Shown in pieces: positions 746-21,056 of a stretch of DNA of 57,372 nucleotides. The stretch spans positions 1 through 57,372 of the forward strand of contig JACNKC010000085.1 in NCBI GenBank assembly GCA_014382245.1, written 5' to 3'. The position numbers were made by a program, and so were the translations under genes. The notes beneath the pieces are model-generated. The model worked only from the letters and a program-made list of their open reading frames with translations, was not told where the DNA came from and made no database searches. Each line of letters starts with the position of its first letter. Positions within the stretch are counted from its first letter, which is position 1. The stretch comes from Pseudomonadota bacterium (GTDB lineage: Bacteria > Desulfobacterota > Binatia > UBA1149).

Positions 746-1867
746 CTATGCGACTTTCGCAATCAAGGCTTCGTACATGTCTTCCATCTGCCGCACCATC
801 GACTCGGCAGAAAAGCGCTGCTCGACCCGTTCACGTGCTGCGCGCCCCATCTCGGCGCCCAGCGACCGATCCTTAAAAAGCGTGCTCAAAACGTCAGCAG
901 TACCCTGCACGTCGCCATACTCCACCAGGAAACCCGATATACCATGGTCGATCATTATAGGTGCCCCGCCGACGGCGGTCGACACCACGGGCATCTGCAT
1001 GGCCATTGCTTCGAGCAATGCGTTGGACATCCCCTCTGTTTCCGAGGGAAGCAGGAACACGTCCGCCTGCGCAAAAAAAGCGGGCATATCACCCACGACG
1101 CCACAGGGCTCGATCCTGTCAGCCACGCCACGCGCACGGGCCAGCTGGGCGGCCTCACCGGCGAGCTCGCTTTCCCCCGCCACCCTGACACGCAGGCCGG
1201 GAAACTCCTTTGCCAGTACCGAGATCACGTCGAGCAGAAGCGGGTATCCCTTGCGTGGTTTGAACTGCATCACCACGGCCAGCACCGGTCCGTCGGCCTC
1301 CCGGTCTGCGGACTCCGCCGCTACCTGGAATCGACGCAGGTCTATACCGCTGGGAATCATCAACATGCGATCCGGCTTCACCCCCTCCACCCTCTCGGTG
1401 AACCCAAGCACTGCCGGTGAATTGCCCGTGACCAGGTCGGTGAACGCGTTGGACACCCTGACCGCGGCCCACTCTGACAGACCCGACGGTTCGTGCAGAC
1501 CTCGGCGACTGGTGACCACCCGCTTGACACCGGCCATGCGGGCGCAAACGGCTGCGAAAAAATTACCCCTCAGCAGGTAGCCGTGCACGAGGCCAGGGCC
1601 CAGTACCTTCAGCTCGCTCACCAGCCGACGCGCGCCTCGCCAGTCGACAACGTGACCAAGCCCACCGCTCATTCCCATTGTAGCCACCGGAACATCCAGG
1701 GCAGCAACCCGGGACAAAAGATCACCCTCGTCCCTGAGCGCGAACAGGTGAGGAGCAAAGCGCTCGCGGTCGAGCAACCTCAGAACCTGCAGCAGGTGAG
1801 TTTGCGTACCACCCGTATGCATCGAGGCGACAACGTAGGCGATTGGAACTGGACGGTGGCTGCTCAT
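746..1867 (-). CDS. GT4-type glycosyltransferase
   Basis: A 373-aa GT-B fold retaining glycosyltransferase. The N-terminal part begins [19 protein letters not shown], with the glycine-rich acceptor loop typical of GT4. The C-terminal nucleotide-sugar domain has the E-x7-E motif in [15 protein letters not shown] followed by a GG loop. I chose the ATG at 1867. The open frame continues upstream only as a shadow of the flippase gene in another frame, with no glycosyltransferase-like residues. No strong ribosome site is seen. It lies 50 nt downstream of wzx in the operon and probably adds a sugar to the undecaprenyl-linked repeat unit. Donor and acceptor are unknown. Confidence 0.85.
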
Positions 1868-1917
1868 GGGGTCAGGCGCTCGCCTGGGCGGTTTTATTCT
1901 ACCAGACGTGGGCCACG

Positions 1918-3270: not shown

Positions 3271-3274
3271 CCGG

Positions 3275-4369: not shown

Positions 4370-4383
4370 GTAACAGGCCCGGT

Positions 4384-5628: not shown

Positions 5629-6605
5629 TTTCCCGCGTCCGCCGATCGACGAAGCGCCTCGTCGGTGGCAACAGTGGCTGACCAGCCGAGGATCTCGCGG
5701 GCCCGCGTGTTCGAGTAACTTGCGTTCCTGGCAGATCTCTCAAACTGGTAGGCGGGTGTCCATTGCCGGCGCTTGAGTAGCTTGAAGAGAAACGCCACGG
5801 CTCTTATCGCGGGCAGCAGCAATGCTGGCGGCAGGTAGACCACCTTGGCCCCCGACGACTCGGCCGCTGCCAGCAAGCTGAAGTACTCTCGCTGCCTGAG
5901 CGCACTATCGTCGACAAGGTTAAACACCTGGCCGTCCACCCCGGGGGTCGTGGCCGCGAGGACCAGTGCCTCGGCGGCGTTTTCTACGTAACAGATCGGT
6001 ACCGGGTAAGATGCGCGACTGACAACCAAGCGCAGGGGCCCCAGCCGCTTGCTTACACGGCCCCTGAACAGCGGCCGGCCAGGTCCGTAAAGAACCCCCG
6101 GCCTGACAACTACAACAGGGGCACCAGACTTGAGCGCGGCCATCGCCGCGCGATCGGCATGAATTTTTGAGCGGGTATAGTGTCCCCTCAACAGCGGTTT
6201 GCGGTCATAGGCTTGTTCTTCGTCGACCTCGATTTCCGAGCGTCCCCGGCCAAGTTCAAATATGCCGAGCGAACTCACGTGCACGAAACGCCGCACACCT
6301 GCGGCCACCGAGGCTTCTATCAGCCGGTGAGTGCCCAGCACATTGCTGTTGTGAAAAACGCTCCAATCGCCGCTGGTCTGCACATGTGCGCCAGCGTGAA
6401 TCACTCCCCCACAGCCCTCCAGCGAAGCAGCGAACCCGTCAACGTTTTCAAGCTCGCCATAAACAACGGTCGCGCCCTGCCCTTCCAGTTCCGTACTGTC
6501 TGAACCGGCGCGAACCAGCGCTGTCACGTCGTGGCCGGCTCCACACAGTTGGCTGACAACGCGGGCCCCGAGAAATCCCGTCGAACCCGTAACGAAGACC
6601 TTCAC
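5625..6605 (-). CDS. Extended SDR NAD-dependent epimerase/dehydratase
   Basis: 326 aa with the Rossmann motif TGSTGFLG at residues ~7-14, HVSSLG for the active-site serine and YTRSK for the catalytic Tyr-x3-Lys. This is the UDP-hexose epimerase/dehydratase or steroid-dehydrogenase-like branch of extended SDRs. A GTG start overlaps the preceding gene (GTGA) and its stop overlaps the next start (ATGA). It probably makes or modifies a nucleotide sugar for the repeat unit. A specific reaction cannot be assigned. Confidence 0.85.
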   Translation of the reverse strand: MKVFVTGSTGFLGARVVSQLCGAGHDVTALVRAGSDSTELEGQGATVVYGELENVDGFAASLEGCGGVIHAGAHVQTSGDWSVFHNSNVLGTHRLIEASVAAGVRRFVHVSSLGIFELGRGRSEIEVDEEQAYDRKPLLRGHYTRSKIHADRAAMAALKSGAPVVVVRPGVLYGPGRPLFRGRVSKRLGPLRLVVSRASYPVPICYVENAAEALVLAATTPGVDGQVFNLVDDSALRQREYFSLLAAAESSGAKVVYLPPALLLPAIRAVAFLFKLLKRRQWTPAYQFERSARNASYSNTRAREILGWSATVATDEALRRSADAGK

Positions 6606-7648
6606 CTGCCAGCCCCGTCGCCGTCTTTGGCTATCGCCGCCCAGATCTGCTGCGTGACATCGACCACTGACCGGGCTTCATCCACGCTCACCGGCGACTC
6701 ACCGCCCTCGTCCACGGCGGAATAAAAGCGAGACAGGAGATTTCCCATACCGGGATAGAACCTGGTTTTCCCAGTCAGGAATTCGACCGTACTGCGCCCC
6801 GTCTGCGAAAACAGCTGCCAAGCCTCTTCGAGATTGGGTAGGGACTTACCAATCAGCTTTGGTACGTTGCGGACGACACGCCGGATGATGGTCATGTTGT
6901 TCAGGTTCACGTCCACGGTCATGCGGGTTCCGTAAAGCCTGAGCGTGTTGCTCTGCGGGTGGGCGTTCATCGAAATCGTCAACATCCCACTCACGTCGCC
7001 TGATTTCATCAGCACGCGCAGCTCGCGCGGACCTTTTTCATCCCTGCGATCAAAAGCCCAGGCCTGGAGTTCATCGACCGGCCCGAGGAAAGCCAGTTGC
7101 AGGTACAGCGGGTGAGGCAGCAGGTCGCCCAGGCCCCCACCCGTGAGCTGGGATAGCCAGGCTCGTTCGCTCGCATGACCGGCCTGGTAGCTCTCCACGC
7201 CCACGAGGTCACCAAGCACACCGTCTGCAACGAGCCGCCGGGCTTCGAGCATGACGGGATCAAACAGCCGATTGTGGTCAACGCAAAGCATTCGACCAGC
7301 CTTGTCGGCGGCAGCGACCATGCGGTTAACTTCTTCTACCGACAGCGCGGCGGGCTTTTCCACCACCACGTGCACACCGGCTTCCAAGGCGTTTACCGCT
7401 ATCTCGGCGTGGGTATGCGGCGGCGTCAAAACGTGGACGACGTCGAGTTCTTCCGCCGCGAGCATCGAACCCGCATCGGCGTAAGTTCTCTGCACGTCAA
7501 AACGATCGGCGAGATCATTAGCGGCACCAAGATCAGCATCAGCTATCGCGACAACGTCGGCACCGGCTTTGCGAATGTAGGGTACGTGTACGCCCGAGAT
7601 GATGCCGGCTCCTACCAAGCCGACACTGGTGCTGGACGATCGCTCCAT
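6602..7648 (-). CDS. Gfo/Idh/MocA family oxidoreductase
   Basis: 348 aa. An N-terminal Rossmann domain (VGLVGAGIISGVHVPYIRKA) is followed by the conserved EKPAAL motif carrying the family's catalytic lysine, then an alpha/beta substrate domain. In polysaccharide loci this family often oxidises the 3-position of UDP-HexNAc or UDP-HexNAcA (WbpB/WlbA type) before a DegT-family aminotransferase. One such aminotransferase lies three genes upstream. The partner N-acetyltransferase of that pathway is not in the window, so the assignment stays at family level. Confidence 0.85.
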   Translation of the reverse strand: MERSSSTSVGLVGAGIISGVHVPYIRKAGADVVAIADADLGAANDLADRFDVQRTYADAGSMLAAEELDVVHVLTPPHTHAEIAVNALEAGVHVVVEKPAALSVEEVNRMVAAADKAGRMLCVDHNRLFDPVMLEARRLVADGVLGDLVGVESYQAGHASERAWLSQLTGGGLGDLLPHPLYLQLAFLGPVDELQAWAFDRRDEKGPRELRVLMKSGDVSGMLTISMNAHPQSNTLRLYGTRMTVDVNLNNMTIIRRVVRNVPKLIGKSLPNLEEAWQLFSQTGRSTVEFLTGKTRFYPGMGNLLSRFYSAVDEGGESPVSVDEARSVVDVTQQIWAAIAKDGDGAGR

Positions 7649-7723
7649 TGAATATACCGAGTGAATTTCTGCCCAGTCAGCCGACCGTTCACCGTCGCCG
7701 AGATGGCCAACGGCAGAAACCTG

Positions 7724-8818
7724 CTATGCCGACTCGGCGATCTCCTTGCGGCCTCCGTCCTCGCCTTCGAGGTCTACGCGTTTGCCCCCGAAGCCGTACT
7801 GCCTGAGATAAACGAGGTTGGAGTAAACCGGGTCGTCGACTTCAAGAGCCCCTCCCGACAGCAAGCCCCGCAGCTGCTCGACGCCCTGTTGCACCGAGTA
7901 CTTGGGTTTGAACTTCAAGACGTACTCGATCTTGTCAAAACTGACCTTGTAACTGCGCAGGTCATCAACCGCGGCTACGTGCTCCACCGCGATGCCCAGG
8001 TCAGGGAGTGCCGCGGCTACGATGTCGGCGGTTTCGCCGACGGTGTGATTCTGGGAGTTGCCTCCGACGTTGAAGATCTCTCCCGATACTTCTTCGGACG
8101 GGGCTTCCGTGGCCGTAAGAAAAGCTCTCGCCACATCCTGCACGTGGACGTGGGGTCGCCATGCTTCGCCACCCATAACGGTCACCTTGCCACCGGAAAG
8201 CGCCCGCGTTGTCATGGTGTTGACCATCAGGTCCAGCCTCATCCTCGGCGAGGTACCAAAGACGGTGCCAAGCCTCAGCGTCACCACAGAGCAATCTTCG
8301 AGTTCGGAGTGGAGTATTCCTTCCGAAACGATTCGGCTACGGGCGTAAAACGAAATCGGGTTCAGAACCGAGCCCTCGTTGAGAACAAGTCCCTCGTTGG
8401 CCCCGTACACGCTGCACGACGAAGCGAACACAACCCGCTTGACCTCGGGGGCCAGGCTAACCACCTGGCTCAGGAGCTTGGTCGACTCCACGTTGATCGC
8501 CAGGGTCTCTTCGTGGTCCAGCTCGCAGGCACCGTCGCCGACCAGGGCCGCCAGGGCAATGACCGCACGCACCCCGCGCATACAGCGAATCAGGTCGCGG
8601 ATATTGCATATATCACCGCGAAGAACTTCCAGGCGCGGGTTCGAGTAACACTCCTTGAGCCCCATGTCACCGTAAAGAAAACAGTCAAGCACGCGAACCC
8701 TGTAGCCCTTGGCGAGCAGCATCCTTACCAGGTGACTACCCACGTAACCGGCTCCACCGGTTACCAGTACCATATCTCCGGGTTTCACCCCCCCGCCCGT
8801 TACATCGCTGTTGGTCAC
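7724..8818 (-). CDS. Extended SDR sugar epimerase/dehydratase with Lys-to-Arg active-site change
   Basis: 364 aa resembling UDP-glucose 4-epimerase/dehydratase-type SDRs. It has TGGAGYVG at 20-27, GDICN at the adenine side and the serine motif ASSCSVYG at 132-139. The catalytic tyrosine is Y158, but the motif reads YARSR, with Arg162 where the catalytic lysine is expected; the codon is clearly CGA. The GTG start overlaps the upstream gene (GTGA). It may still bind NAD(P) with altered activity. A 75-nt gap separates it from the next gene. Confidence 0.82.
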   Translation of the reverse strand: MTNSDVTGGGVKPGDMVLVTGGAGYVGSHLVRMLLAKGYRVRVLDCFLYGDMGLKECYSNPRLEVLRGDICNIRDLIRCMRGVRAVIALAALVGDGACELDHEETLAINVESTKLLSQVVSLAPEVKRVVFASSCSVYGANEGLVLNEGSVLNPISFYARSRIVSEGILHSELEDCSVVTLRLGTVFGTSPRMRLDLMVNTMTTRALSGGKVTVMGGEAWRPHVHVQDVARAFLTATEAPSEEVSGEIFNVGGNSQNHTVGETADIVAAALPDLGIAVEHVAAVDDLRSYKVSFDKIEYVLKFKPKYSVQQGVEQLRGLLSGGALEVDDPVYSNLVYLRQYGFGGKRVDLEGEDGGRKEIAESA

Positions 8819-10236
8819 GCTTGTCTCTCCCTGATCGCAGTACGTACCTCGAAAATGCCGGTGTCCATCTGTTCGAGCAGCCCGGAGAGCGCCGGCAGCA
8901 GCCGGTAAGGGATTCCTATCGCCTCGCAGGCCTCGGTAATATCGCGCACCTCGGTCGGACTGAGGTCCGCCAACGAAACCAGTACCAGCTTAACCCGGTG
9001 AGTGCTCGCGGCCATGGCCATGTCGGACGCGCCGCCAATGACCCGGATCCCGTGTATGATGCCGCCCCAGCTGTCGGGCTCGTGGTCTATGATTCCCATG
9101 GGCATATAACGTGACTCCGGATCTTCAAGCAGTGCCCGCAGTATGTTGTCCGCCCCGTGCCCGGATCCAGCAACGAGAACGTTGACCATCGGCCCGGTCC
9201 AGCCGTCACCAGCACGGCCGGCCCGGAAGGCCTGCATGAGATAACGGCTGATCGTCAACATGAAAATGACCAGCAACCAGTCTATCAGGAAAATAGCCCG
9301 CGAATGCCCGCGAAAACCCGAAAAGTAATCGGCAGCCACGATGAGCGCTGAGCCCACGCTGACCGCCTTTATGATGGCCGCGAAGTCACGACGGGAAAAC
9401 CTCTCCACCGCCCGCTGGTAGAGACCGAAGTAGACAAAAATCGGCGGCCGCAACAGCGTGATCCACAGCAGGGTAACCCCTATGTAAGGCATCGACCGAT
9501 CTTGAAGCACCCAGTCCGTCTTCAACAGGTTGGCAAATATATAGGCCAGCATCACGAGCAGCAGATCGCCCAACGCCATGTAAATACGGCTTCGATTACG
9601 GGCGAAAAAACCCACCTTCAACTGGCTCAGCGCGAGCTTGAATACCCCGACCAGCAAAAACCCGAGATCACCGGCAAGCGAAAAATTGCGCACGTAGTCA
9701 AGGTCGCGCTGCAGTTTTCCAGGCAGTAGGTGTTCGATGTAGTAGGACTCGGTATCAACCGTACCCTCGGGGTACTCGGCGGTCTCGTCACGCCCGTCCA
9801 TCTGGCTGGGCCCTATCATGCCCGGCTTCACGTCGAGCACAGCCCGCTGCTCGTTGGAATAGAAGTTTACGAAGTAGGGGTCTTCAGGACGAGGGCCGAC
9901 GAGCGACATGTCACCCACAAGGACATTGAAGAGTTGCGGCAGCTCGTCCAGCTTCGTCCAGCGCAGGACGTGTCCCACCCGGGTAACGCGGGGATCTCGC
10001 TTAACGGTCAGCCTCGCGCCGCTGCGATAAGCGCCCACGACCATCGTCCTGAACTTGAAGATCCAGAAGGGCTGCCCGCCCCTGCCACTTCGCTCCTGGC
10101 GATAAAAAACAGGGCCACGGGTATCGAGTTTTACCAACGCGGCTATCACCAGCAGCAGCGGCAACAACACCAGCAGTCCAGGCAGACAGAAGAGCAGGTC
10201 GATTAGCCGCTTTCCTATGGACGCGGCGTTCTTCAT
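8815..10236 (-). CDS. Initiating phosphoglycosyl transferase with permuted (PGT-first) domain order
   Basis: 473 aa. Residues 1-~200 are a complete monotopic phosphoglycosyl transferase: a re-entrant hydrophobic helix at 11-35, KFRTM at 61-65, the catalytic Asp-Glu pair at 97-98 in KLDELPQ, and GPRPEDP at 114-120. Residues ~219-335 add four membrane segments. Residues ~350-473 form a Rossmann-like CoA_binding_3 domain ([12 protein letters not shown]). In WbaP-type enzymes the membrane bundle and Rossmann domain come first and the PGT domain last, so the order here is reversed. It should transfer a sugar phosphate to undecaprenyl phosphate and start repeat-unit synthesis. It overlaps both neighbours by four bases. 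Confidence 0.88.
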
Positions 10237-11405
10237 GCCCGCTGCTCCCCCGCTATTCTCCTGACACTGTTGGCCACCGCGGCTACGTCATCGTCAGTCA
10301 TCTTGGGGAAGAACGGCAACGAGATCGATGTCTCGAACAGGTTCGAGGCATTCTTGAAACTGTCGCGGCTGAGACCAAGCTTTTCCTGGAACCACGGGTG
10401 GTAGTGGGCAGGAATGAAATGGACACTGGTACCTATGTTGTCGGCCTTGAGCATGTCGATGAAATCGTTCCGCGAGCAGCGCAGTTCTGCTGGCTTGAGC
10501 CTCATGATGTACAGGTGCCACGCCGACACGCCTTCGGTACAGGGCGCCGGCGTAATGATGCCCGGCAGACCTTCGAGCAGCTCGGTGTAGAGCCTCGCCA
10601 ATTCAACGCGCCTTTCCTGGAAGCCCTGCAGTCGATCGAGCTGGTGAAGGCCTATGGCCGCGTTGATGTCGGTCATGTTGTACTTGAAGCCCTGCCGCGA
10701 AACTTCGTAGTACCAGCTCCCCTCGGCCGAATAGCGTTTCCATGCGTCCCGCGAGATACCGTGAAGCCGGATCATGCGCGCCGCGTCGGCCAGTTCCTCA
10801 TCGTCGGTAGCCAGCACGCCCCCCTCCCCGGTGGTGATGTTCTTACCGGCGTAGAGGCTGTATGCCGACACCCGCCCGAGGCCACCAACCGGGGCACCCC
10901 GGTACTCGGTGCCCAGGGCGTGGGCCGCATCCTGCAACACCCAGGCACCGCAGTTCTCGGCGAGTTCGCCGATCGCGGCCATGTCGCAGGGCACACCGGC
11001 TATGTGTATGGGCAGGATGACCCGCGTGGCATCATTGCAGCTTCGAGCCACGAGCGCGGGGTTCATGTTAGGAGAATCCTCGAGGGTGTCCACGAGAACC
11101 GGCCTGGCACCAGCCTGGAGAATACTCGAGATGGTCGAGGGAAAGGTATAGGGGCTGGTAATGACTTCGTCGCCCTCTCCAAGCTCACCAGCCACCATGG
11201 CTATATGAAGAGCTGCCGTACACGAAGACACCGCGACGGCGTGGCGAACGCCAGCCACCTGCGCAAATTTTTCTTCGAAACGCACGGTCTTCGGCCCCAT
11301 GGTGAGCCACCCCGACTTCAGGGTATCCACCACCTCGGCGATCTCCTCGTCCCCGAGGTACGGGCGATGAAAAGGGAGAAAATCTTTCAGCCTGCTGTCG
11401 CTCAC
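10233..11405 (-). CDS. DegT/DnrJ/EryC1/StrS family sugar aminotransferase
   Basis: 390 aa, the usual length for PLP-dependent nucleotide-sugar aminotransferases. It shows AVAVSSCTAALHIA for phosphate binding, QDAAHALG for the PLP Asp, and the Schiff-base lysine in YAGKNITTGEGG. It would transaminate a keto-sugar nucleotide, perhaps the product of the Gfo/Idh/MocA enzyme or an SDR in the same operon. The GTG start overlaps the preceding stop by one base (TAGTG). Confidence 0.9.
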   Translation of the reverse strand: MSDSRLKDFLPFHRPYLGDEEIAEVVDTLKSGWLTMGPKTVRFEEKFAQVAGVRHAVAVSSCTAALHIAMVAGELGEGDEVITSPYTFPSTISSILQAGARPVLVDTLEDSPNMNPALVARSCNDATRVILPIHIAGVPCDMAAIGELAENCGAWVLQDAAHALGTEYRGAPVGGLGRVSAYSLYAGKNITTGEGGVLATDDEELADAARMIRLHGISRDAWKRYSAEGSWYYEVSRQGFKYNMTDINAAIGLHQLDRLQGFQERRVELARLYTELLEGLPGIITPAPCTEGVSAWHLYIMRLKPAELRCSRNDFIDMLKADNIGTSVHFIPAHYHPWFQEKLGLSRDSFKNASNLFETSISLPFFPKMTDDDVAAVANSVRRIAGEQRA

Positions 11406-12727
11406 TATCTGCTCGACTCGCCGGACCGTATATAGCTGTTGATAATCGCTCCCAGTTCAACGAGGTTTTTATTCCTGTCCCAGATATCTTCCACTTTCTT
11501 TCTCGCCGCCAAGCCGATGCGCGCGGCCAGGCCTGCGTCCCCGTGCAGGCGGGCGATGGCATCGGCCAGCCCCTCGCTGTCTCGTTGCTCAACGAGGATC
11601 CCGTCTACACCGTCGTCGATGAGTTCGGGCACGCCCGATATATCAGACCCGATAACAGGAAGGCCCGTGGCCATTGCTTCTGCCAGTACGTTGGGAATCA
11701 CGTCCTGCTTACCGTAGCGCCCGAGCACTATACTGGGAAGGGCAAAAATATCGGCAGCCCCGTAGAGCCCCGACAATCGGTCATGATCAATATATCCATG
11801 GAAGGTCACACGGGCTGAAATTCCAAGCTCTGCAGCTCTTTTTTCAAGAAAAGCTCGCTGTGGGCCGCCGCCGACCACGTCACAGCTCACGCTTATGCCG
11901 CGCTGCGCTAAAATGGCGATGGCGTCGAGCAGGTAGTGGATCCCCTTGTACTCTTCGAGGCTGCCGCAGGTCATCACCCTTAAGCCCTCGTGCTCTTCCT
12001 TCCTCGCCACACTGAAACGTTCGAGGTCCGCGCCGTGGTAATTCACGTGGATCTTGTCGGACTCGCCCCGGGCTACCATCGTCGCGAGGTATTTTGCGTT
12101 CACCCTCGCGCAGGTAACCACGAACTCAGCCGACCTGATCTTCTCGGGCAGCAGCCTGGCCACCATGTGAATGTCGTAGGCGTGGGCCGTGAAGCTATAA
12201 GGAATCCCTCTCCACCTGCGTACGAGCATGGCCACCGTGGTGGGATAGGTGGCCCAGTGCGCGTGCACGTGTTCTATGCCCTCTCTCTCAAAAAGCTCGG
12301 CGAGGTAGAAAGCGTAGGGCAACATGGCAAAAGAACGCAGCAGGTAGAGCAGGTCGTTGCTCTTCAAGAACGCGTCTGCGCGTTCTTGAATCCCCATCGT
12401 GCTGCCACCCCCATCTTCGCCGGCGACGCGCCCTGGCACTTCTTTCCAGGTCGTGAACACGTAGCCGACCAGGCCCAGCGCCTTGAAGGGTTGCGAAGTG
12501 AATGCCCGCAGGGTTGCTGCGAGCATTGCCGGCGCCAGGATTCGCGGGCAGTAAGCGGTCTCGTTAACCAACCGAAGAGCTTCGGGCTGTTGCTGGCCCT
12601 TGCTTCTTGGCTTCAGGGAAACCAGGCGCAGATCATAGCCGCGCCGCTTCAACCCGAGCACCTCACCCAGGGTAAAGGTCTGGTGTAGGACCGGAAACGC
12701 CGGAAAGAGGTAAGCCAGGCGCCGCAT
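11405..12727 (-). CDS. GT4-type glycosyltransferase, WcaL/AmsK-like
   Basis: 440 aa. The N-terminus LAYLFPAFPVLHQTFTLGEV and the HVHAHWATYPTTVAML segment are typical of the WcaL/AmsK colanic/amylovoran glycosyltransferase branch. The E-x7-E motif is modified to D-x7-E in QDVIPNVLAEAMATG. It is the first glycosyltransferase in the operon, eight bases after the polymerase gene, and is expected to act on the cytoplasmic face. Donor sugar unknown. Confidence 0.86.
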   Translation of the reverse strand: MRRLAYLFPAFPVLHQTFTLGEVLGLKRRGYDLRLVSLKPRSKGQQQPEALRLVNETAYCPRILAPAMLAATLRAFTSQPFKALGLVGYVFTTWKEVPGRVAGEDGGGSTMGIQERADAFLKSNDLLYLLRSFAMLPYAFYLAELFEREGIEHVHAHWATYPTTVAMLVRRWRGIPYSFTAHAYDIHMVARLLPEKIRSAEFVVTCARVNAKYLATMVARGESDKIHVNYHGADLERFSVARKEEHEGLRVMTCGSLEEYKGIHYLLDAIAILAQRGISVSCDVVGGGPQRAFLEKRAAELGISARVTFHGYIDHDRLSGLYGAADIFALPSIVLGRYGKQDVIPNVLAEAMATGLPVIGSDISGVPELIDDGVDGILVEQRDSEGLADAIARLHGDAGLAARIGLAARKKVEDIWDRNKNLVELGAIINSYIRSGESSR

Positions 12728-12735
12728 AGCTTCAA

Positions 12736-14280
12736 TCAGGCCGCCAAGGCAACCGTTGGCCGCCCACCGGGGACCGTTCCCGTTTCACGGTAGTACTCGT
12801 GAAGCCGGATAAGACTCAGGCACAAGCCAACGATGATGTAGAATACGATGTTCACCCACATGTCCGCGAACAGGCAGAATACCACGAAACCGATGAGCGA
12901 GGTGTGCATGGCGTCGACAGCCCACTTCATACCCACGGGAGCATAGGCGCCCTCGGCGTACTCGCGACGCAGAACCCGCAGTCTCTTAAACAGGCTGGTA
13001 AAAACGTAGAGGTACAGAATGAGAACGACCAGCCCCCCTTCAACCGTCGCCCAGAGATAAGAGTTATGTGGTGGTGCGGTCTCCCCGTATTGGTCTACGG
13101 CAGCACGCTCGGTTGAAAAATTGCCCAGGCCCACGCCGAAAACCGGGTGGCGGGGGATCATGGCCAGGGTCGATACGAGGTTCTGACCGCGTTTTTCAAA
13201 TGATCCACGGGCGATCTGCCCCTCGGCAAGAGCCTCGGGATTAGCCCGAAACTGGGTCAGCCTGGTCGCAACCCCTTCGGGCAATACCACGCCGACCAGG
13301 TTCACCTGGAAACCGAATTGCAGCAGCAGGGCCAGCGAGGCAACTGCCATGCCCACGACGCGCCTGAGGCCGAAACGTCCTTCCATCGACACAATGGCCA
13401 GAAAAAGCAGGAGATTGAGCACCCCGCTGCGCGAAGCGGTAAGGGGGATAATTATAATCGGAATCGCTACGGCCACGAGCCACATCCCCCGCCCGAACCA
13501 GTGCTTTACCTCGTTTCGGTAATACCAGGTAAGAGAGAGACAGAAAAGGGCAAAGTAGGCGAGCTTGTTCGGGTTGCGCCCGGTGTAGAGAGCTGTGCCG
13601 ACGTCGCCAAGTACCCTTACCCGACCGGTACCCCAACCGAAAGGCCCGGATTCTGCGCTGATGCTGAAGTAGGTCATAACCAGGCAGGCAACCACGGTGG
13701 CCATTACAGCTGTGATCTCCCGCGGACTGCGCACGAAAAAGAAAAGAAAAACCAGGAACAAATAGCGAGTGAGCAGTTTCAAGCGCGGATCACGCATGTC
13801 GACAAGAACCGAGTAGTCAGCGGCCCTTACGCGCAGCGCTTTCTCTACCACCACCCCCGACGCGCCCTCGCTCGGAGGCATGTAGGCAAACGACGATGCG
13901 ATAAAAATCAGTGCCGCGATCGCCAGTACGACCATGACCGGTTCCCCAAGAAGCCAACCGGGACGCTCCCTGATAATACCGATAACCAGCATACCAATGA
14001 ACACCACCCCCAACACGTTGTTAATGGTTATGTTGCCTCCGGCAATCAGGAAGTTGGGGTAGGTAAAAAGGAAGGTAACCACGTAGATGCAGATGCCCAC
14101 CACCGGGCGGCGCAGCACGAGCGAACCGGCAAGCAGCGCAGAGCCGGCACCGAGCACGACCAGTCCGCCGCCCGTCCTGAAAGCCAGGGCGGCCACCACC
14201 GCCACCACGACGGCTGCAACGTAGGCCGCGAGCTGTCCCCCGCGTACCGCGGGCATTGATTGCTGGGTTATCGTCGCCAT
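12736..14280 (-). CDS. O-antigen polymerase/ligase family (Wzy/WaaL-like) membrane protein
   Basis: 514 aa with roughly 10-12 hydrophobic helices and a large periplasmic loop. The loop includes the Wzy_C-type motif GVGLGNFS followed by PPHNSYLWATVEGG, the conserved His-Asn region of the O-antigen ligase superfamily. Its place between the copolymerase and the glycosyltransferases favours a Wzy polymerase joining repeat units in the periplasm. A ligase role cannot be excluded from sequence alone. Confidence 0.85.
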   Translation of the reverse strand: MATITQQSMPAVRGGQLAAYVAAVVVAVVAALAFRTGGGLVVLGAGSALLAGSLVLRRPVVGICIYVVTFLFTYPNFLIAGGNITINNVLGVVFIGMLVIGIIRERPGWLLGEPVMVVLAIAALIFIASSFAYMPPSEGASGVVVEKALRVRAADYSVLVDMRDPRLKLLTRYLFLVFLFFFVRSPREITAVMATVVACLVMTYFSISAESGPFGWGTGRVRVLGDVGTALYTGRNPNKLAYFALFCLSLTWYYRNEVKHWFGRGMWLVAVAIPIIIIPLTASRSGVLNLLLFLAIVSMEGRFGLRRVVGMAVASLALLLQFGFQVNLVGVVLPEGVATRLTQFRANPEALAEGQIARGSFEKRGQNLVSTLAMIPRHPVFGVGLGNFSTERAAVDQYGETAPPHNSYLWATVEGGLVVLILYLYVFTSLFKRLRVLRREYAEGAYAPVGMKWAVDAMHTSLIGFVVFCLFADMWVNIVFYIIVGLCLSLIRLHEYYRETGTVPGGRPTVALAA

Positions 14281-14299: not shown

Positions 14300-15025
14300 T
14301 CAGGCTACGAGCTCGGATATAGCGACGGGCATGTACTCGCGCCGCTTGTTGAGAACTGAGCCCAGAACTTCCCCACCGGCCTTGCGAACGGCTTCAATGG
14401 TCCTCGAAGCTACCGCGACGGGTGTCGAATCGGCCTCCACGACCAGGACCACTCCGTCGACCGCAGCAGCAACCGTGGCCGCGTCCGGGTACAGCGCAAA
14501 AGGGGGTACATCGATGAATACCAGGTCGGCCTGAGACGCGAGGTCTTTTACAAGGGCAGGCATGTCCGCTCTCTCGAGCAGCACAATTGCGTCGTCGCCG
14601 CCGGTGCCGGCGGTGACCAGGCGAACGCCGCTCTCCGCGGTGTCCTGTATCACCTGGTCCAGGGTCTTCTCGCCGGAGATAACATTCATTACACCTTCGG
14701 GCGAACCGGCCTGGGCCATGCGCCACAAGCAAGGAGTACGGAAGTTCATGTCGACAAGGAGAACCTTGTTATTGCCGTTGGAGGCTGCCGCCCGGGCAAG
14801 TAACCAGGCCACAGAAGATGCGCCCTCACCGTGCAGTGAACTCGAAACCACGACGGTTTTTACTTCAGCGCCGATGTTGATACTGGTCATGGCCTGCCGT
14901 AGTTCGAAATCCTCATCGGCCGTGGCCGTGGCGATCCCGGGTGCAGCGACGCTCCGCTGCCCTGTCTCGGCAGCTCCCGACCTGAGGTTCTCGGCTCTCT
15001 TCAATGCTTCATATGTTCTGCTCAT
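14300..15025 (-). CDS. CpsD/CapB-like BY-kinase family protein with degenerate P-loop
   Basis: 241 aa starting MSRTYEALKRAE, the usual opening of cytoplasmic tyrosine autokinases that pair with a Wzz/GumC copolymerase. The P-loop reads HGEGASS at 65-71: Ala69 replaces the lysine of GEGKS. The Walker A' motif reads DMN at 92-94 instead of DxD. The Walker B-like FIDVPP is kept. Only one tyrosine (in RREYMP) remains near the C-terminus, not a Tyr cluster. ATP hydrolysis and autophosphorylation may be weak or lost. It overlaps the copolymerase by four bases. Confidence 0.83.
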   Translation of the reverse strand: MSRTYEALKRAENLRSGAAETGQRSVAAPGIATATADEDFELRQAMTSINIGAEVKTVVVSSSLHGEGASSVAWLLARAAASNGNNKVLLVDMNFRTPCLWRMAQAGSPEGVMNVISGEKTLDQVIQDTAESGVRLVTAGTGGDDAIVLLERADMPALVKDLASQADLVFIDVPPFALYPDAATVAAAVDGVVLVVEADSTPVAVASRTIEAVRKAGGEVLGSVLNKRREYMPVAISELVA

Positions 15026-16491
15026 GACTTTCTTACTCCAGTTTCACTCGCACCGTTTTCACCGTACTCGTCTTCCGGCAGCTCCGCTATAACGGGAACC
15101 CCCAGGTTGTAGCGCACATCGGCGGCGCTGTTCATCACCGGGGTCAACAGCTCCATCGCTACCGCCGAACCAACGCTTATCAGCAGGGCGGCGAACAGCG
15201 ACAGCACCATGGTAACGACCTTGAAGTCGGGCACCTTCTGCAGGGGAAGCCCCGCTGCCTCGATGATGCTCACGCCCGAAATACCAGCCTTGTCCATCGC
15301 GCTCGAAACGCGCAGTTGGTCAAACTTCTGAAGAAGACCGCGGTAACTGTCCTTCTTCTCCTGCCTGTCACGGCGCATCCTCATCACTTCGTAGTGCTGC
15401 TCGTGCATCGTGGCGATGCGTACTCCGTAGCCGCCGAGTTTTTCGGCGAGAAGTGCCCTGCGCGACTCCAATGCTCCCAGCTCAGCCTGGGAATCCAACA
15501 AGGACTCTTCTATACGCCGGCGAATACTCGAAGCGCTGATTTTCTTGCGACCGACAACGGTCTTCTCCTGGAGCCCCACCTGGGCCGAGAGCGCCGCTAT
15601 CTCCCTGTCCACGTCCATGAGCAGGCGATGCTCGGGAGTGTAGAGCTGCATCAGCCGTTCTCTTTCAATCTTGAGACGCGAAAGGTTCTGGCGCAGGAAA
15701 CCAACCAGCGGGTTGGGCACCATGTCTACCTCGGAGGTACCGCTCTCGGGTACGTACTCGAGCTCTGCCTCCAGCGCTACTATCCTCGTCGCTGTCTCGG
15801 CGATCGTAGCCTCGGTCCTCCGCAGGTCTGCCTCGACCTGGGCCTGCTGGCGGATGAGCACATCTTTTTGCGTCGCCACCGCGGTGAGGCCGTGTTCCTT
15901 GTCAAAATCCTCAAGTTCCTTGTCCATGGTCCCCAGCGAGACACGGGCCATCTGGAGCTCTCGTTCAAAAAAGTCGGCGGCCCCCCCCGAACTGTGCAGC
16001 TCTATGGAGTAGTCGACATAAAGCCTGACCAGGGAGTTAACCACCAGTACCGCCTCCTCCTCGGAAGAACTGCGATACGAAACCTCGACCACGTTGGAGT
16101 CAGCCTTGCGCACTACCCTCAAGGAACCGCGCAAGTTGTCCATGGAGGGAACATCGGGGTCAGTCTCGCCATCGCCGGCCATTGCCGCGGCGAGGTCAAA
16201 GTGCAACCTGCGCAGCAGTTCACGGCTCCTGAGAACCTGCATCTCCGAGTTCACTAACGAATCGTTGGGAAGACTGGATACCTCTTCCTTGCGATCCATG
16301 GGCGAAACCTCGGGATAGACTCGGTCCTTTCCTATGAGAATTTTCGCCGACGCACTGTAAGTCGGAGCCTTGAGCAGGTTACCCAGGTTGCTCGGCACGA
16401 AGACCAGCAAAAAGAGCAGCACTACAAGGCGGCGATGTTTGAAAACGGCCCCAGTTGCCTGGCGCAGCAGATATCCGGATCTTGCTTCCAT
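15022..16491 (-). CDS. Wzz/GumC-like polysaccharide copolymerase (chain-length determinant)
   Basis: 489 aa. A membrane helix at ~20-38 is followed by the Wzz domain (APTYSASAKILIGKD), long periplasmic coiled coils, and a second helix at ~425-445 preceded by the proline-containing AAGLPLQKVPDFKV segment. There is no C-terminal kinase domain; the CpsD-like partner is the next gene. It controls chain length and couples polymerisation to export through the Wza-like channel. ATG start, 16 nt after the export lipoprotein gene. Confidence 0.9.
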   Translation of the reverse strand: MEARSGYLLRQATGAVFKHRRLVVLLFLLVFVPSNLGNLLKAPTYSASAKILIGKDRVYPEVSPMDRKEEVSSLPNDSLVNSEMQVLRSRELLRRLHFDLAAAMAGDGETDPDVPSMDNLRGSLRVVRKADSNVVEVSYRSSSEEEAVLVVNSLVRLYVDYSIELHSSGGAADFFERELQMARVSLGTMDKELEDFDKEHGLTAVATQKDVLIRQQAQVEADLRRTEATIAETATRIVALEAELEYVPESGTSEVDMVPNPLVGFLRQNLSRLKIERERLMQLYTPEHRLLMDVDREIAALSAQVGLQEKTVVGRKKISASSIRRRIEESLLDSQAELGALESRRALLAEKLGGYGVRIATMHEQHYEVMRMRRDRQEKKDSYRGLLQKFDQLRVSSAMDKAGISGVSIIEAAGLPLQKVPDFKVVTMVLSLFAALLISVGSAVAMELLTPVMNSAADVRYNLGVPVIAELPEDEYGENGASETGVRKS

Positions 16492-16507: not shown

Positions 16508-17218
16508 CTAGTTTCCTATATTGGGCAGCCGCGTGCTGGGCTCCCTGACGGGTATCAGTCCGCGAATGTACTGGTCAACCCAATTGTTGGCGTTGGCGAT
16601 CCAGGTACGGGGCACGAAGACCACGTCATTGGGTCCCAGCAGTGCATCGGCGCTGGCATCTCCGTCATCAATCATTGCTTCCAGGTCGAGCCTGTCGGCT
16701 TCGTAATTTCCTGGCCCCTTCCAGCGAACAAGCAGCACGCTGTCAGTCTTGGCCGTCCGCTTGAGCCCGCCGCGCTCGACTATGGCCCTGAAGGAAGTCA
16801 TGCCGGGCCTCAGTCGCACGTAGCCGGGATCCCCTACTTCGCCACCCACGTAGACGCGCCTGACCGCCATCTCGCGGATCACCACGCTCACGGTGGGTTC
16901 ACGGTAGGTCACCGACGCCCTGCTCAGCAGGTCTCTGCTCAAGTCCCAGGTCGTCAGGCCGGCTGCCCGGAACTCCCCGAGGGAAGGCACGCCAACGTGG
17001 CCATCACTCCTGACGGTGGCCACGGTGTCCAGCTCCGGGTGAAAAGGAAACTTGATATCGATCACGTCGCCCACCACCACGCTGTAGGGAAGCGTGCTAC
17101 CGTCGGCTGCCAGGGCCTCGGACGGAATGAATGTACTGTTTGATAGTTCCCTGGCCGCCGAGCAACCCGAAAGAGTAGCCGCCGTCACCAGGATTAAAGT
17201 TCCAATTATCGTCTTCAT
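16508..17218 (-). CDS. Wza-like polysaccharide export lipoprotein
   Basis: 236 aa. A lipoprotein signal ends in LSGC (Cys19). The polysaccharide export domain (YSVVVGDVIDIKF) is followed by SLBB-like beta-grasp segments (VYVGGEVGDPGYVRLRPG). It is shorter than E. coli Wza, as in many delta-type loci, and lacks an obvious C-terminal amphipathic helix. It should form the outer-membrane or periplasmic export channel. It is the first gene of the long export/assembly operon, directly behind a perfect sigma-54 promoter. A weak GGAAAG ribosome site precedes the ATG. Confidence 0.9.
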   Translation of the reverse strand: MKTIIGTLILVTAATLSGCSAARELSNSTFIPSEALAADGSTLPYSVVVGDVIDIKFPFHPELDTVATVRSDGHVGVPSLGEFRAAGLTTWDLSRDLLSRASVTYREPTVSVVIREMAVRRVYVGGEVGDPGYVRLRPGMTSFRAIVERGGLKRTAKTDSVLLVRWKGPGNYEADRLDLEAMIDDGDASADALLGPNDVVFVPRTWIANANNWVDQYIRGLIPVREPSTRLPNIGN

Positions 17219-17300
17219 ATTGTTCTTTCCGTTCTGTAGTCATTGCCCCGGCAGACCGCATGGAGTGGCATCCAGGGCGAGATTTCTCTGCCCAGGGGCA

Positions 17301-17315
17301 GCAAGTATAGTGCCA
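17301..17315 (-). promoter_or_regulatory. Sigma-54 (-24/-12) promoter for the polysaccharide export operon
   Basis: On the minus strand the sequence is TGGCAC-TATAC-TTGC followed by T, an exact match to the RpoN consensus with the invariant GG and GC ten bases apart. Initiation would be near 17289, leaving a leader of about 70 nt before the Wza-like start codon at 17218. An NtrC-type activator gene lies nearby at 19632-21056. Confidence 0.85.
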
Positions 17316-17321
17316 CGATAT

Positions 17322-17404
17322 CCCCCACATGCGGGGATCTTTCTTCCCCCGACCGGGGGGGGATTCCCACCCATCTGGCCGTTCGGACTCCCCGCCCGGG
17401 TGGG
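17322..17404 (-). promoter_or_regulatory. Three CCCCC-N4-GGG-type candidate activator sites
   Basis: Copies are at 17322-17336 (six-base spacer), 17346-17362 (spacer gacc) and 17390-17404 (CCCC-gccc-GGGTGGG). The first begins seven bases beyond the -24 box. The set resembles three copies upstream of the ATPase promoter. Interpretation as enhancer sites for the NtrC-type regulator is inference. Confidence 0.45.
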
Positions 17405-17523
17405 TTTTTGTGGTCCTGGATCATCATCAATAAAAACTGCCTTAGTCGTGTGCCACAGCCTCTGGCCCTACTCTGCGTCATTGCATAAACGCAAGGCTGG
17501 GCGTTTCCGCACTGCCGGGTCAC

Positions 17524-19383
17524 TCAAGCCCCGGGTATCAACGCTGGCGATTCATCGGTGGCCAGCTGGCCCGCGGGTGCGAGGCTTGCTTCGTGTACCC
17601 CCGAGTTAACAACGAGATCGGCCACGCGAAGCGCCGAGTCGCGATCGCCGAAGCCGACCGCGAACAGCCCCAGGCCGCTTCCGTCTTCCAACCTGCGAGT
17701 CTTCAAGGACACCCCTGCCTCCTGGCTGCTCACGAGGTCGCGCATACCGTCAAGGCGTTCAAAACTACCGCTCGCCACCAACAGGACCTGCCAGCCGCCG
17801 GGGTTGCCAGCGCTGACCATTGCCCGCGCGTCGTTGAAGGGCAGGAACAGGGTGCCGCCAACCACCAGCTTCCTGGGGTTACCCAGCCCAGGGTTGGCTT
17901 CAAAAATACGATCGAGTGTTGCCGGGAGTGTGTTTCCGTAAGCCGCCTCGGCGATATCCCAGATAGTGTCGCCGTTTTTGACCAGCACGTCCCTGCCCGC
18001 CGCTACACCCGCGCCCGCAGTTATGTACAAGGCCGGCTTCGCCGGACGACTGGTGTCGTAAAGTCTGGCTGCGGTTGACCTGGCGAGTATCGCCGCAAGC
18101 CGCGTGCTGGCAGAAACACCCTCGAGGAGTTTCGCGCTGGGCTGGCTGGCAAGCTCGTTAGCGGCTGCTGCAGCGCCGAGCGCCTCAGCCGCCGTCTCCC
18201 CAGCCGCCGTCTCAGCCAGCGGCCTTGCCGCAACGCTGCCGGTCAACACGGGCAGCTCCTGCGTTCCGGCCGTCGCAACGGAGGAACCCTTGTCCACTTC
18301 CTCGCCCCGGCTGATAACTTCAGCCTCCGTGGGAGAGCTCTTGTCGGCGACAAAAAGGAGCGACTCGGCCGCGGGGACTGAGTTGACTGCAAGCGACCTC
18401 TCCTGCTCGGTAGCTGCCAATGCGCTGTAGGCGGGCTTTTCTGCCGCCGGGCCAACCACGTTTGCCCAGGCGAGGCCCAGGACCAGCGAAACGGCCACGG
18501 CCGCAACCGCCACACGACGGCCCTTGTGACCCATAGCGCCGCGCATACGAACGATCGTGGCCCAGGAGCCAAGGCCGGTGGAGCCCTCCACATCGCGCAC
18601 CGCTTCGTTCATCAACCTGCACCCGACCCGCTTGCGCCCGGCGGCAAAAGCTATAAGCAGGGCGTTATCACAAACCACGTTCACCAGGCGGGGTATCCCT
18701 GCCGAGGCCATCCACACCAACCGAAGTGCCGTAGAACTGAACACGCCGAGCTCTTTGCCACCCGCGCCCCTGAGGCGCGTGGTCACGTAAGCGCCGATTT
18801 CGCCCTGGCTCAAGGGTTCCAGTCTCGCCCGCGTACCGATGCGCTGCCGCAACTGCCGCAGCGAGGGATCCCTGAGTTTTTCTTCGAGTTCGGGCTGTCC
18901 CGAAAGAACTATCTGCAGCGTTTTTTCCTTGGAAGTTTCAAGGTTGGTGAGCAACCTCAGGCCCTCGAGCACGGTATTGGGCAAGGTCTGGGCTTCGTCT
19001 ATGAGCACGACCACGTTGCGACCCTCGACCAGGGACTCAAGGAGAAAACTGTTCAACCTGTCGAGCATCCCGAGCCTGGCGCAGCCCTCGACGTCAAGAC
19101 CTAGTTCCATGCAGATATACTCGAGCAGTTCGTCAAAACTGACACCGGGGTTAAAGATGAACACCACCGTGCTCTCGCCCTGCAGCTCTTCGGCGACGCG
19201 CTTGAGCAGCGTGGTTTTACCGGTACCGGCCTCGCCCACCAGGGAGATGCAGCCCTTGCGCGCCCGTATTCCGTACAGCACCGACGCCAGTGCCTCCCGT
19301 GTAGTCGGATTGACGTAATGAAAACGCGGGTCGGGTGTCAGGTTGAAGGGGTCTTCCGACAGTCGGTAGAAATGAGCGTACAT
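17524..19383 (-). CDS. GspA/ExeA-like AAA ATPase with TM helix, LysM and SPOR-like domains
   Basis: 619 aa. The ATG at 19383 has GGAGG nine bases upstream; the frame stays open further upstream through the promoter region but is not coding there. Residues 1-~270 are an ExeA-type AAA ATPase: MYAHFYRLSEDPFNLTPDP opening, Walker A GEAGTGKTT at ~50-58, Walker B VVLIDEAQ at ~125-132, SGQPEL sensor. A helix at ~285-305 crosses the membrane. A low-complexity Ala-rich linker, a LysM domain (NGDTIWDIAEAAYG) and a C-terminal SPOR-like domain follow. The N-terminal part matches the ATPase family of exosortase/PEP-CTERM polysaccharide loci. It probably couples cytoplasmic ATP to peptidoglycan at the export site. 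Confidence 0.87.
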   Translation of the reverse strand: MYAHFYRLSEDPFNLTPDPRFHYVNPTTREALASVLYGIRARKGCISLVGEAGTGKTTLLKRVAEELQGESTVVFIFNPGVSFDELLEYICMELGLDVEGCARLGMLDRLNSFLLESLVEGRNVVVLIDEAQTLPNTVLEGLRLLTNLETSKEKTLQIVLSGQPELEEKLRDPSLRQLRQRIGTRARLEPLSQGEIGAYVTTRLRGAGGKELGVFSSTALRLVWMASAGIPRLVNVVCDNALLIAFAAGRKRVGCRLMNEAVRDVEGSTGLGSWATIVRMRGAMGHKGRRVAVAAVAVSLVLGLAWANVVGPAAEKPAYSALAATEQERSLAVNSVPAAESLLFVADKSSPTEAEVISRGEEVDKGSSVATAGTQELPVLTGSVAARPLAETAAGETAAEALGAAAAANELASQPSAKLLEGVSASTRLAAILARSTAARLYDTSRPAKPALYITAGAGVAAGRDVLVKNGDTIWDIAEAAYGNTLPATLDRIFEANPGLGNPRKLVVGGTLFLPFNDARAMVSAGNPGGWQVLLVASGSFERLDGMRDLVSSQEAGVSLKTRRLEDGSGLGLFAVGFGDRDSALRVADLVVNSGVHEASLAPAGQLATDESPALIPGA

Positions 19384-19470
19384 AGCTTGCTGCCTCCGCG
19401 ATGCTCGTTGTCCGTTCGGCGCCTGCCTGGCTCCGAGCGCGGACGGGATTTCATCGCTGTGAGCAAATGA

Positions 19471-19485
19471 GCAACCCCCGTGCCA
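19471..19485 (-). promoter_or_regulatory. Sigma-54 (-24/-12) promoter for the ATPase gene
   Basis: The minus strand reads TGGCAC-GGGGG-TTGC, an exact RpoN consensus. Initiation near 19459 gives a ~75-nt leader to the ATG at 19383, which has a good GGAGG site. Confidence 0.85.
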
Positions 19486-19487
19486 TT

Positions 19488-19609
19488 CCCCCCCTGTCGG
19501 GTAGGAGTTGCCCCCCGAGTGGGTATTCCTGAAATACCCACTGTTCAAGCGCCTTTCCGGGGTTTTTGTTGGACGGGATGCGAGACGGCCTCCCCCCCTG
19601 TGGGTGGGG
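19488..19609 (-). promoter_or_regulatory. Three CCCCC-N4-GGGTRGG-type candidate activator sites
   Basis: Copies are at 19488-19505 (spacer tgtc, GGGTAGG), 19511-19527 (spacer gagt, GGGTATT) and 19592-19609 (spacer ctgt, GGGTGGGG). The first two start 23 nt apart, as the first two copies upstream of the export operon start 24 nt apart. A GGGTTTTTGTTGG segment at ~19559-19571 parallels the one at 17402. Activator-binding function is inferred. Confidence 0.5.
19518..19542. repeat. Perfect 10-bp inverted repeat, probable operator/enhancer
   Basis: Arms AGTGGGTATT and AATACCCACT flank a five-base spacer (cctga). The dyad is about 60 bases upstream of the predicted initiation site and overlaps one CCCCC-N4-GGG element. 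Its size and symmetry fit a dimeric regulator site such as one for a Fis-domain NtrC-type activator. Confidence 0.6.
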
Positions 19610-19631
19610 CGAGCCTTGCGAAATCAAGAGA

Positions 19632-21056
19632 TCATTGCAGCGCTGCACGGCCAGCCGGGTTGTTACCCTGCCCCCGGAACTCCTCGCGACGTAAACCGTG
19701 GGATTTCATCTTGCGGTGCAACGTGGCCGCGTCGATCATCGCGTGTCCCGCGCTGACCGCTATGGCTCCTGCATTACGCGCCAGCAACGATTCCAGGTAC
19801 TCTCTTTCAGCGCGCCGGAGGTACTCCTTGAGGGGTAAGCGGAGGGCTCCGCTTGCCGCCTGCCCACCCGCACCACGGAGTTTACCCGGGGTGCTCGAGG
19901 GAATATCGATCTCCGACAAGGCTGTCCCCCTGCACTTGATGATGGCCCGCTCAACTACGTTTCTCAGTTCACGGATGTTGCCTGGCCAGTGGTAACTCAT
20001 CAGTTCACGAAGAGTTTTGTTCGAGGTGCTCTTGATGTGCCGTTCCACGGCTATCGGGTTGGATTTCAACAGGTCGGCCACCAGCAGGGGCACGTCCTCG
20101 ATCCTGTCCCTGAGTGGCGGCAGGTCAACCGGCACTACGTTTATGCGGTAGAAAAAATCTTCGCGCATTTCGCCGCGCTCAACCATCTGGTCGAGGTTGC
20201 GGTTGGTAGCCGTTATTACCCGAAGATCTACGTTCAACAGCCGGTTTCCACCGAGTTTCTCGATCTCCCTCTGCTCCAGCACTCGCAGCAGCTTGAGTTG
20301 CATGGCCAGCGAGATGCTCTCGACCTCGTCGAGAAACAAGGTGCCGCCGCTGGACAGTTCGACCTTGCCCACGCGGTCGGCCACCGCGCCTGTGAAGGCC
20401 CCCTTTTCGTAGCCCAAGAGCTCGCTCTCGAGCAGGGTTTCGGGAAAAGCCGCGCAGTTGATAGCCACGAAACGGCCTTCTTTGCGGCGGCCCTGGTAGT
20501 GGATCGCCCTGGCTATGAGTTCCTTACCCGTGCCCGATTCTCCGGATATGAGAACCGTAGCGTCGTTGTGGGCGAGAGACTCTACTGTCTCGAAAAGTTC
20601 GTGCATGACCGGGTTGCGACTGATCATGTTGGCGAACGAAAAACGTTCGCTGAGCTGACCACGCAGGTAGCTGATCTCGTCGATTAACTTGCGCTTCTCC
20701 ATGACCTTTTCGGCAGCAAGAAGTATGTCTTCGCGCTCAAAAGGCTTTGTGATGTAATCTTCGGCGCCGTGCCGCATGGCTTCGACAGCGCCCTTTATAG
20801 AGGCGTAGCCAGTGACGATAATCACCGGCATATCGGGCCAACGCTCGCCAACTTCGGTCGTGAGACTCAGGCCATCGCTGCCAGGCATCTTCAAGTCGAC
20901 CAGGGCCAATGAAAACACCGATTCTTCGAGTAATTCCAGTGCCTCGCGAGCAGTGCCCGCGCACTCCACGGTGGCGTTTCGCTCCCTGAAAAGGTCTTCC
21001 ATCTGTCGGCAGATCAAGGGATCGTCGTCTACGACCAGTATCCTCGCATTTTCCAT
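19632..21056 (-). CDS. NtrC-family sigma-54-dependent response regulator
   Basis: 474 aa. The receiver domain has Asp54 as phospho-acceptor (LVDLKMPG) and Lys104 in ITKPF. The AAA domain has GESGTGKE at ~172-179, the sigma-54 contact loop GAFTGA at 219-224 and FLDE at 241-244. The C-terminal Fis-type HTH ends the protein. No sensor kinase is encoded in the window, so it is an orphan here. It lies directly upstream of two perfect sigma-54 promoters driving the polysaccharide genes, which strongly suggests it activates them. It resembles the response regulators found in PEP-CTERM/exosortase loci. Confidence 0.93.
   Translation of the reverse strand: MENARILVVDDDPLICRQMEDLFRERNATVECAGTAREALELLEESVFSLALVDLKMPGSDGLSLTTEVGERWPDMPVIIVTGYASIKGAVEAMRHGAEDYITKPFEREDILLAAEKVMEKRKLIDEISYLRGQLSERFSFANMISRNPVMHELFETVESLAHNDATVLISGESGTGKELIARAIHYQGRRKEGRFVAINCAAFPETLLESELLGYEKGAFTGAVADRVGKVELSSGGTLFLDEVESISLAMQLKLLRVLEQREIEKLGGNRLLNVDLRVITATNRNLDQMVERGEMREDFFYRINVVPVDLPPLRDRIEDVPLLVADLLKSNPIAVERHIKSTSNKTLRELMSYHWPGNIRELRNVVERAIIKCRGTALSEIDIPSSTPGKLRGAGGQAASGALRLPLKEYLRRAEREYLESLLARNAGAIAVSAGHAMIDAATLHRKMKSHGLRREEFRGQGNNPAGRAALQ

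Follow-up and report, generated by a model that had tools for sequence, protein, structure and literature searches.

Control of polysaccharide-related genes by sigma-54 and NtrC-type activators is already established (PMC1569441, PMC9850573, PMC10162802, PMC3162934). Sigma-54 control by PrsK/PrsR has been predicted for PEP-CTERM genes (Haft et al. 2006, PMC1569441), and pepA has been reported to be RpoN-dependent (PMC9850573). The activator SypG, which acts on the syp locus of Vibrio fischeri, receives its signal through a relay that runs from RscS to the HPt domain of SypF and then to SypG (PMC10162802, PMC3610818), and according to a general survey of sigma-54, the transport and synthesis of exopolysaccharides recur among its targets (Francke et al. 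2011, PMC3162934). Concerning phosphorelays, the histidine phosphotransferase ChpT is known to be unable to autophosphorylate (PMC3433190).

The locus described here lies on a contig of 57,372 bp (hereafter the window, contig C92) from a 2.94-Mb draft genome (G000) that is 95% complete. This genome was compared with its relatives in a set of 13 genomes of the same order, which fall into four families: f1 (the genus of the window, with congeners G011 and G012), f2 (G001-G007), f3 (G008 and G009), and f4 (G010). One congener, whose ATPase is 89% identical to that of the window, is labelled UBP10 bacterium UBA1149; UBP10 is the candidate phylum Binatota.

An XrtA-like polysaccharide locus with two sigma-54 elements

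The main features of the locus are the following:

19632..21056, minus strand: NtrC-family response regulator of 474 aa, with a receiver, an AAA+ sigma-54 interaction domain holding GAFTGA, and a putative Fis-type C-terminus
19471-19485, minus strand: sigma-54 -24/-12 element TGGCACGGGGGTTGC, promoter of the ATPase gene
17524..19383, minus strand: XrtA/PEP-CTERM-type ATPase (AAA_22) of 619 aa with a C-terminal LysM (TIGR03015, 250.7 bits against a cut-off of 324.5; PF13401, PF01476)
17301-17315, minus strand: sigma-54 -24/-12 element TGGCACTATACTTGC, promoter of the wza-like gene and the polysaccharide operon
16508..17218, minus strand: wza-like polysaccharide export lipoprotein of 236 aa, with Poly_export, SLBB, and the lipobox LSGC (signal sequence read directly)
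15022..16491, minus strand: polysaccharide chain-length determinant of the Wzz type (TIGR03007)
14300..15025, minus strand: tyrosine autokinase of the CpsD/EpsG type (TIGR01007, TIGR03018)
12736..14280, minus strand: O-antigen ligase/polymerase family protein (Wzy_C, PF04932)
746..12727, minus strand: rest of the tightly packed operon, with glycosyltransferases, an aminotransferase, a sugar transferase, epimerases, an HprK-like protein, and a Wzx-like flippase

Every gene listed between positions 21056 and 746 is encoded on the minus strand, and the order of the core, promoter-proximal genes is kept in 13/13 genomes. The run that follows the wza promoter extends for ~16.5 kb (17218 to 746), which is shorter than the ~20-kb operon proposed in the first-pass annotation. 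That annotation had also named the two promoter-proximal products: its Wza-like lipoprotein is borne out by the domains and the lipobox, while its GspA/ExeA-like ATPase has to be renamed, as the closest family is the XrtA-associated ATPase TIGR03015, here with a LysM domain. The mechanically called reading frame of this ATPase starts with a TTG at 19548, upstream of the promoter, and an MYA start at 19383 is common to all relatives. The nearest families of the locus proteins are those of XrtA/PEP-CTERM systems (TIGR03015, TIGR03027, TIGR03007, and TIGR03018), all with scores below the NCBIfam cut-offs, and no exosortase (PF09721) was found in the 95% complete draft genome, so that the locus is XrtA-like but without an exosortase. 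As a separate observation, the sugar phosphotransferase encoded at 8815-10236 (minus strand) holds Bac_transf at residues 9-199 and CoA_binding_3 at residues 270-448, a domain order reversed with respect to WcaJ/WbaP, and its residues 1 to ~456 are colinear in most relatives.

The two elements are the only exact matches to TGGCAC-N5-TTGC in the window, where shuffling predicts 0.18 over the whole length. Both are found on the minus strand and, as had been claimed, at sensible distances from a start codon, with 83 nt from the C of the -12 box to the ATG of the wza-like gene (17218) and 88 nt to that of the ATPase gene (19383). Both show GG at -24 and GC at -12 within the consensus, and both are intergenic and precede a gene. 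Across the genome, exact sites number 27 versus 11 for a backwards control pattern. With 11 control matches on both strands of 2.94 Mb, ~0.001 sites would be expected on the coding strand within the two intergenic stretches (~550 nt), where two are observed. According to a simple codon-based gene caller, 25/27 of the exact sites are intergenic, against a noncoding share of 9.5% in sampled DNA (binomial P ~8e-24), indicating that exact matches in this genome are mostly real promoters. The genome carries one rpoN gene, and the reading of both elements as sigma-54 promoters is well supported.

Other exact sites in the same genome precede a paralogous gene for an XrtA-type ATPase on contig C27 (L010, L011), lie near a further ATPase paralog on contig C52 (L018), and precede two genes on contig C31 (L013, L014) whose products start like Flp-type pilins. 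From these examples, sigma-54 control in this small genome seems biased towards surface functions.

The first-pass annotation had proposed a comparison of both promoter regions across relatives, and its outcome is mixed: the sites recur in the congeners and the ATPase site also in f3, but f2 has neither. In both G011 and G012, the ATPase site is placed at the same 88 nt, and the wza site has the TGGCAT form TGGCATTATATTTGC at an identical distance. These congeners are close to the genome of the window (fourfold sites of the ATPase gene are 82% identical three ways), so that conservation within the genus is by itself weak evidence. Both f3 genomes have an exact ATPase site, at 67 nt in G009 and 90 nt in G008, within surrounding sequence that is otherwise diverged or unrelated, and in f4 a TGGCAT-N5-TTGC is found ~284 nt before wza, with an upstream CCCCCGAGAGGGGGG dyad. 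Members of f2 lack the sigma-54 element at both the wza and the ATPase promoters, and this family has lost the sigma-54 sites at the locus. Five of its genomes (loci L178, L179, L180, L181, and L183) have in common, upstream of the ATPase gene, a TTGGGW-N17-GATAA sequence after TG, which resembles an extended -10 promoter of the sigma-70 type; judging from these sequences, the class of promoter has apparently changed at an orthologous locus between f2 and the other families. The rpoN gene was found in 12/13 genomes of the order. The exception is the f4 genome, an 87% complete draft in which it was not found despite the dyad and the -24/-12-like site before wza; this absence is possibly an assembly gap.

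Candidate dyads and the adjacent regulator

Both promoters hold GC-rich dyads upstream of the -24 box, listed here without strand:

19492..19501: dyad CCC-N4-GGG adjoining the -24 box of the ATPase promoter, candidate activator site
19514..19523: second dyad of the ATPase promoter, 22 bp upstream of the first
19519..19541: inverted repeat GTGGGTATT-N5-AATACCCAC, which overlaps the second ATPase dyad and is largely kept by the congeners in the alignment
19595..19604: distal dyad of the CCCACAGGGG type, ATPase promoter
17324..17335: dyad CCC-N6-GGG adjoining the -24 box of the wza promoter
17348..17357: second dyad CCC-N4-GGG of the wza promoter, ~23 bp upstream of the first
17390..17404: distal overlapping dyads CCCACCCGGGCGGGG, wza promoter

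These dyads are nearer to the promoter than classic enhancers. The motif is G+C-rich and loosely defined, with spacers from N4 to N8. A pair of dyads at the same spacing (22-23 bp) is present in both promoters and in 0.14% of random 60-mers from this genome, a figure that is descriptive since the motif was chosen after inspecting these very promoters. Only two more of the 27 exact sites are rich in such dyads. The one on contig C98 precedes the gene for a secreted protein with a beta-helix, read by eye from the sequence; G011 has the exact site and the dyads before this gene, and G012 and G008 have the dyads with two-mismatch sites. The other, on contig C125, precedes the gene for a 101-aa regulator of the LuxR/GerE type, whose dyads and site are kept in f1 and f3. 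When the combination of dyads and site was searched as a pattern in the 13 genomes, each f1 genome gave 4-5 matches versus 0-1 for a control pattern, and elsewhere there were 1-2 in f3, one in f4, and two in all f2 genomes together. This search added the gene for a secreted protein of ~205 aa (contig C124), whose match is kept in all three f1 genomes. A few of these matches are probably due to chance, and C98:37773 (L225) in the genome of the window may be one of them. The genes for the ATPase, the beta-helix protein, the LuxR-type protein, and the 205-aa protein, together with the wza operon, are therefore proposed as a small candidate regulon. The idea of one switched operon has to be widened accordingly, because the dyads of the two promoters are common to about three others.

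The regulator encoded next to these promoters is intact (19632-21056), and the earlier observation of a GAFTGA-containing response regulator immediately upstream holds not only in the window: the gene adjoins the locus, in synteny, in 13/13 genomes of the order. It matches Response_reg and Sigma54_activat in Pfam, and GAFTGA and the residues of the receiver, including the phospho-acceptor Asp, are conserved across the aligned relatives. At the C-terminus NCBIfam profiles align and a stretch resembling a recognition helix (TLHRKMK) is conserved, and Pfam HTH_8 gave no match at E 0.001. In f1 neither a sigma-54 promoter nor dyads were seen by eye upstream of the regulator gene itself. Upstream of it, on the minus strand (21170-21559), there is a small conserved protein without Pfam or NCBIfam match, present in nearly all genomes of the order. 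Its true start is probably ~21559, since the 242-aa mechanical reading frame overlaps an acyl-CoA dehydrogenase gene and homology begins at about residue 144 in many relatives. In a broader set of loci bearing the ATPase, 48/80 have a sigma-54 activator inside the fetched flank.

The regulator is a likely activator of the two promoters. The first-pass annotation had already assigned it this role, for which its integrity and its adjacency in 13/13 genomes speak; the role could also belong to one of about eight other sigma-54 activators of the genome or be shared with a co-regulator that binds the dyads. This leads to a first alternative, in which the promoters depend on sigma-54 but the dyads are read by another protein, either a different activator or the 101-aa LuxR/GerE-type protein, with the adjacent regulator acting on other targets or on just some members of the set. 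Such an arrangement would fit the presence of dyads and site in the LuxR-type gene's own promoter in f1 and f3, the number of other activators in the genome, and the position of the dyads, which hug the -24 box as those of a co-regulator or a repressor might. It would also fit the situation in f2, where the regulator is kept (~70% identity, a near-identical recognition helix, and GAFTGA) at a locus whose promoters have neither sigma-54 sites nor dyads, which means that the link between regulator and dyads is not order-wide. Against it, in all f1 and f3 genomes the gene that directly precedes the dyad-rich promoters is that of the regulator, and adjacency of an activator and its target, when conserved, usually signals regulation. 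We regard this alternative as unlikely, though worth keeping in mind.

A second alternative, that the locus is a standard PrsK/PrsR system for PEP-CTERM proteins and exosortase whose kinase has moved away, draws on the XrtA-type proteins and on a full-length PrsK-like match on contig C46. It is very improbable, because the 95% complete genome yielded no exosortase, and the regulator scores 364 bits against the PrsR model (TIGR02915), whose cut-off is 502.6, where it is outscored by three more regulators from the same genome. PrsK/PrsR membership was rejected on these cut-offs, the lack of exosortase, and the lack of a tandem kinase (PrsK, TIGR02916, has no match on the contig of the window). 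The C46 kinase (142 versus a cut-off of 300) was dropped as a specific partner, since it is encoded two genes away from an NtrC-type regulator of its own. In f3, G009 has a regulator well above the PrsR cut-off (C177:22935-24260, 701 bits) besides the ortholog of the window's regulator, showing that these are two distinct families within one genome.

The last alternative, that both elements are chance matches and that transcription starts at ordinary sigma-70 type promoters, as seems to be so in f2, whose orthologs share TTGGGW-N17-GATAA and lack the sigma-54 site, is highly improbable: although chance matches do exist (11 control matches per genome), it was dismissed on the intergenic bias (25/27), the pair of sites in two adjacent intergenic stretches where ~0.001 were expected from the control, and the identical distances and paired dyads of relatives.

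A kinase-like neighbour in the relatives

The regulator had been described as an orphan whose kinase is encoded elsewhere. With seven histidine kinases of the same genome as queries, which readily matched each other, no kinase match was obtained in the window or in the 12 relative loci. These ordinary kinases, however, missed in the relatives a degenerate, relay-like protein that came to light when the DNA preceding the regulator gene was read. This histidine-kinase-like protein of ~200 aa is encoded directly upstream of the regulator in 10/10 genomes outside f1 (two detected by profile only and one with a weaker score). It conserves the H-box histidine in the motif E-[VI]-[SA]-H-[DE]-x-x-N-x-F-H, and its C-terminus is kinase-like but without the N, G1, and G2 boxes for ATP binding. 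Searches with its profile reach kinases whose structures are known, ZraS (E 3.5e-8) among them, and an AlphaFold model made with three sequences is of low confidence (mean pLDDT 46). By analogy with ChpT, a role in a relay is plausible. In the window and both congeners the protein is missing at the locus, where the gap between the upstream gene and the regulator is only ~115 bp. Among the broader ATPase-bearing loci, the immediate arrangement and the relay protein were each seen in this order only. The orphan state is specific to the genus of the window, the other relatives having a kinase-like neighbour, and the earlier proposal of a kinase encoded elsewhere is thus only part of the story: it agrees with the window, where none was found, and overlooks the protein without ATP-binding motifs that adjoins the regulator in ten relatives.

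The model that we favour, and to which we give a good measure of confidence, is that the adjacent regulator drives both sigma-54 promoters and the candidate regulon. In this XrtA-type exopolysaccharide locus, the ATPase gene and the 16.5-kb wza-led operon would have one sigma-54 promoter each. Once phosphorylated, the NtrC-family regulator would bind the CCC-N4-GGG dyads that adjoin the two -24 boxes on their upstream side, and its AAA+ GAFTGA ring would open the complex of sigma-54 polymerase; it would probably also switch on the genes for the secreted beta-helix protein, the small LuxR-type protein, and the secreted 205-aa protein. The phosphoryl donor would be encoded away from the locus. 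Elsewhere in the order, the putative kinase-dead, DHp-type relay protein is encoded directly upstream of the regulator, and the genus of the window would have lost it there.

A wider scenario for the whole order can be put forward as a tentative and rather doubtful proposal. It holds that a small kinase-dead DHp protein, encoded beside the regulator, is the last step of a phosphorelay to a sigma-54 activator of surface polysaccharide; that the genus of the window has done away with this step, its activator now either being served by another donor or working without phosphorylation; that one sister family kept both proteins and replaced the sigma-54 promoters with ordinary ones; and that the activator reads tandem CCC-N4-GGG dyads beside the -24 box and not a distant enhancer.

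Comparison with known systems

What this case adds is another bacterial group, a control site that the promoters probably share, and an unusual evolutionary course in which a partner protein was lost. It offers a concrete, testable sigma-54 regulon for a surface polysaccharide, made up of promoters, at least five target units, and candidates for both the activator and its binding site. In the papers searched, no study of such regulation in this uncultured lineage came up. It also provides a natural comparison for the evolution of two-component switches, as a single order contains the regulator with and without its relay partner and the locus with and without sigma-54 promoters.

Like ChpT and Spo0B, the relay-like protein of the relatives appears from its sequence to combine an H-box and a DHp-like helical part with a kinase C-terminal domain devoid of ATP-binding motifs; unlike them, it is nearest in sequence to ZraS-type kinases, and it is absent from the window. 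As with SypG and syp, a sigma-54 activator accompanies a polysaccharide locus whose promoters are of the sigma-54 type. A further resemblance may lie in the relay, which in the case of SypG is started by a separate kinase and to which the arrangement in the relatives may be analogous. The polysaccharide machinery differs from that of syp, and so does the partner, which for SypG is the HPt domain of a hybrid kinase and in the relatives a small kinase-dead DHp-type protein, absent at the f1 locus. Compared with the survey of Francke et al. (2011, PMC3162934), the present case comes from an uncultured lineage, with a sister genome labelled UBP10.

With PrsK/PrsR, the locus shares an NtrC-type response regulator tied to exopolysaccharide loci, proteins of XrtA-type loci, and a similar layout of the sites, which in that system consists of a -24/-12 element ~70 nt before the starts and a separate upstream activator motif. 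It differs in that the regulator is below the PrsR cut-off, a tandem PrsK is absent, and an exosortase was not found; in having as targets the very genes for export and synthesis of the polysaccharide; and in the position of the nearest dyads, which here abut the -24 box, whereas the activator motif of PrsK/PrsR systems is ~63 nt away.
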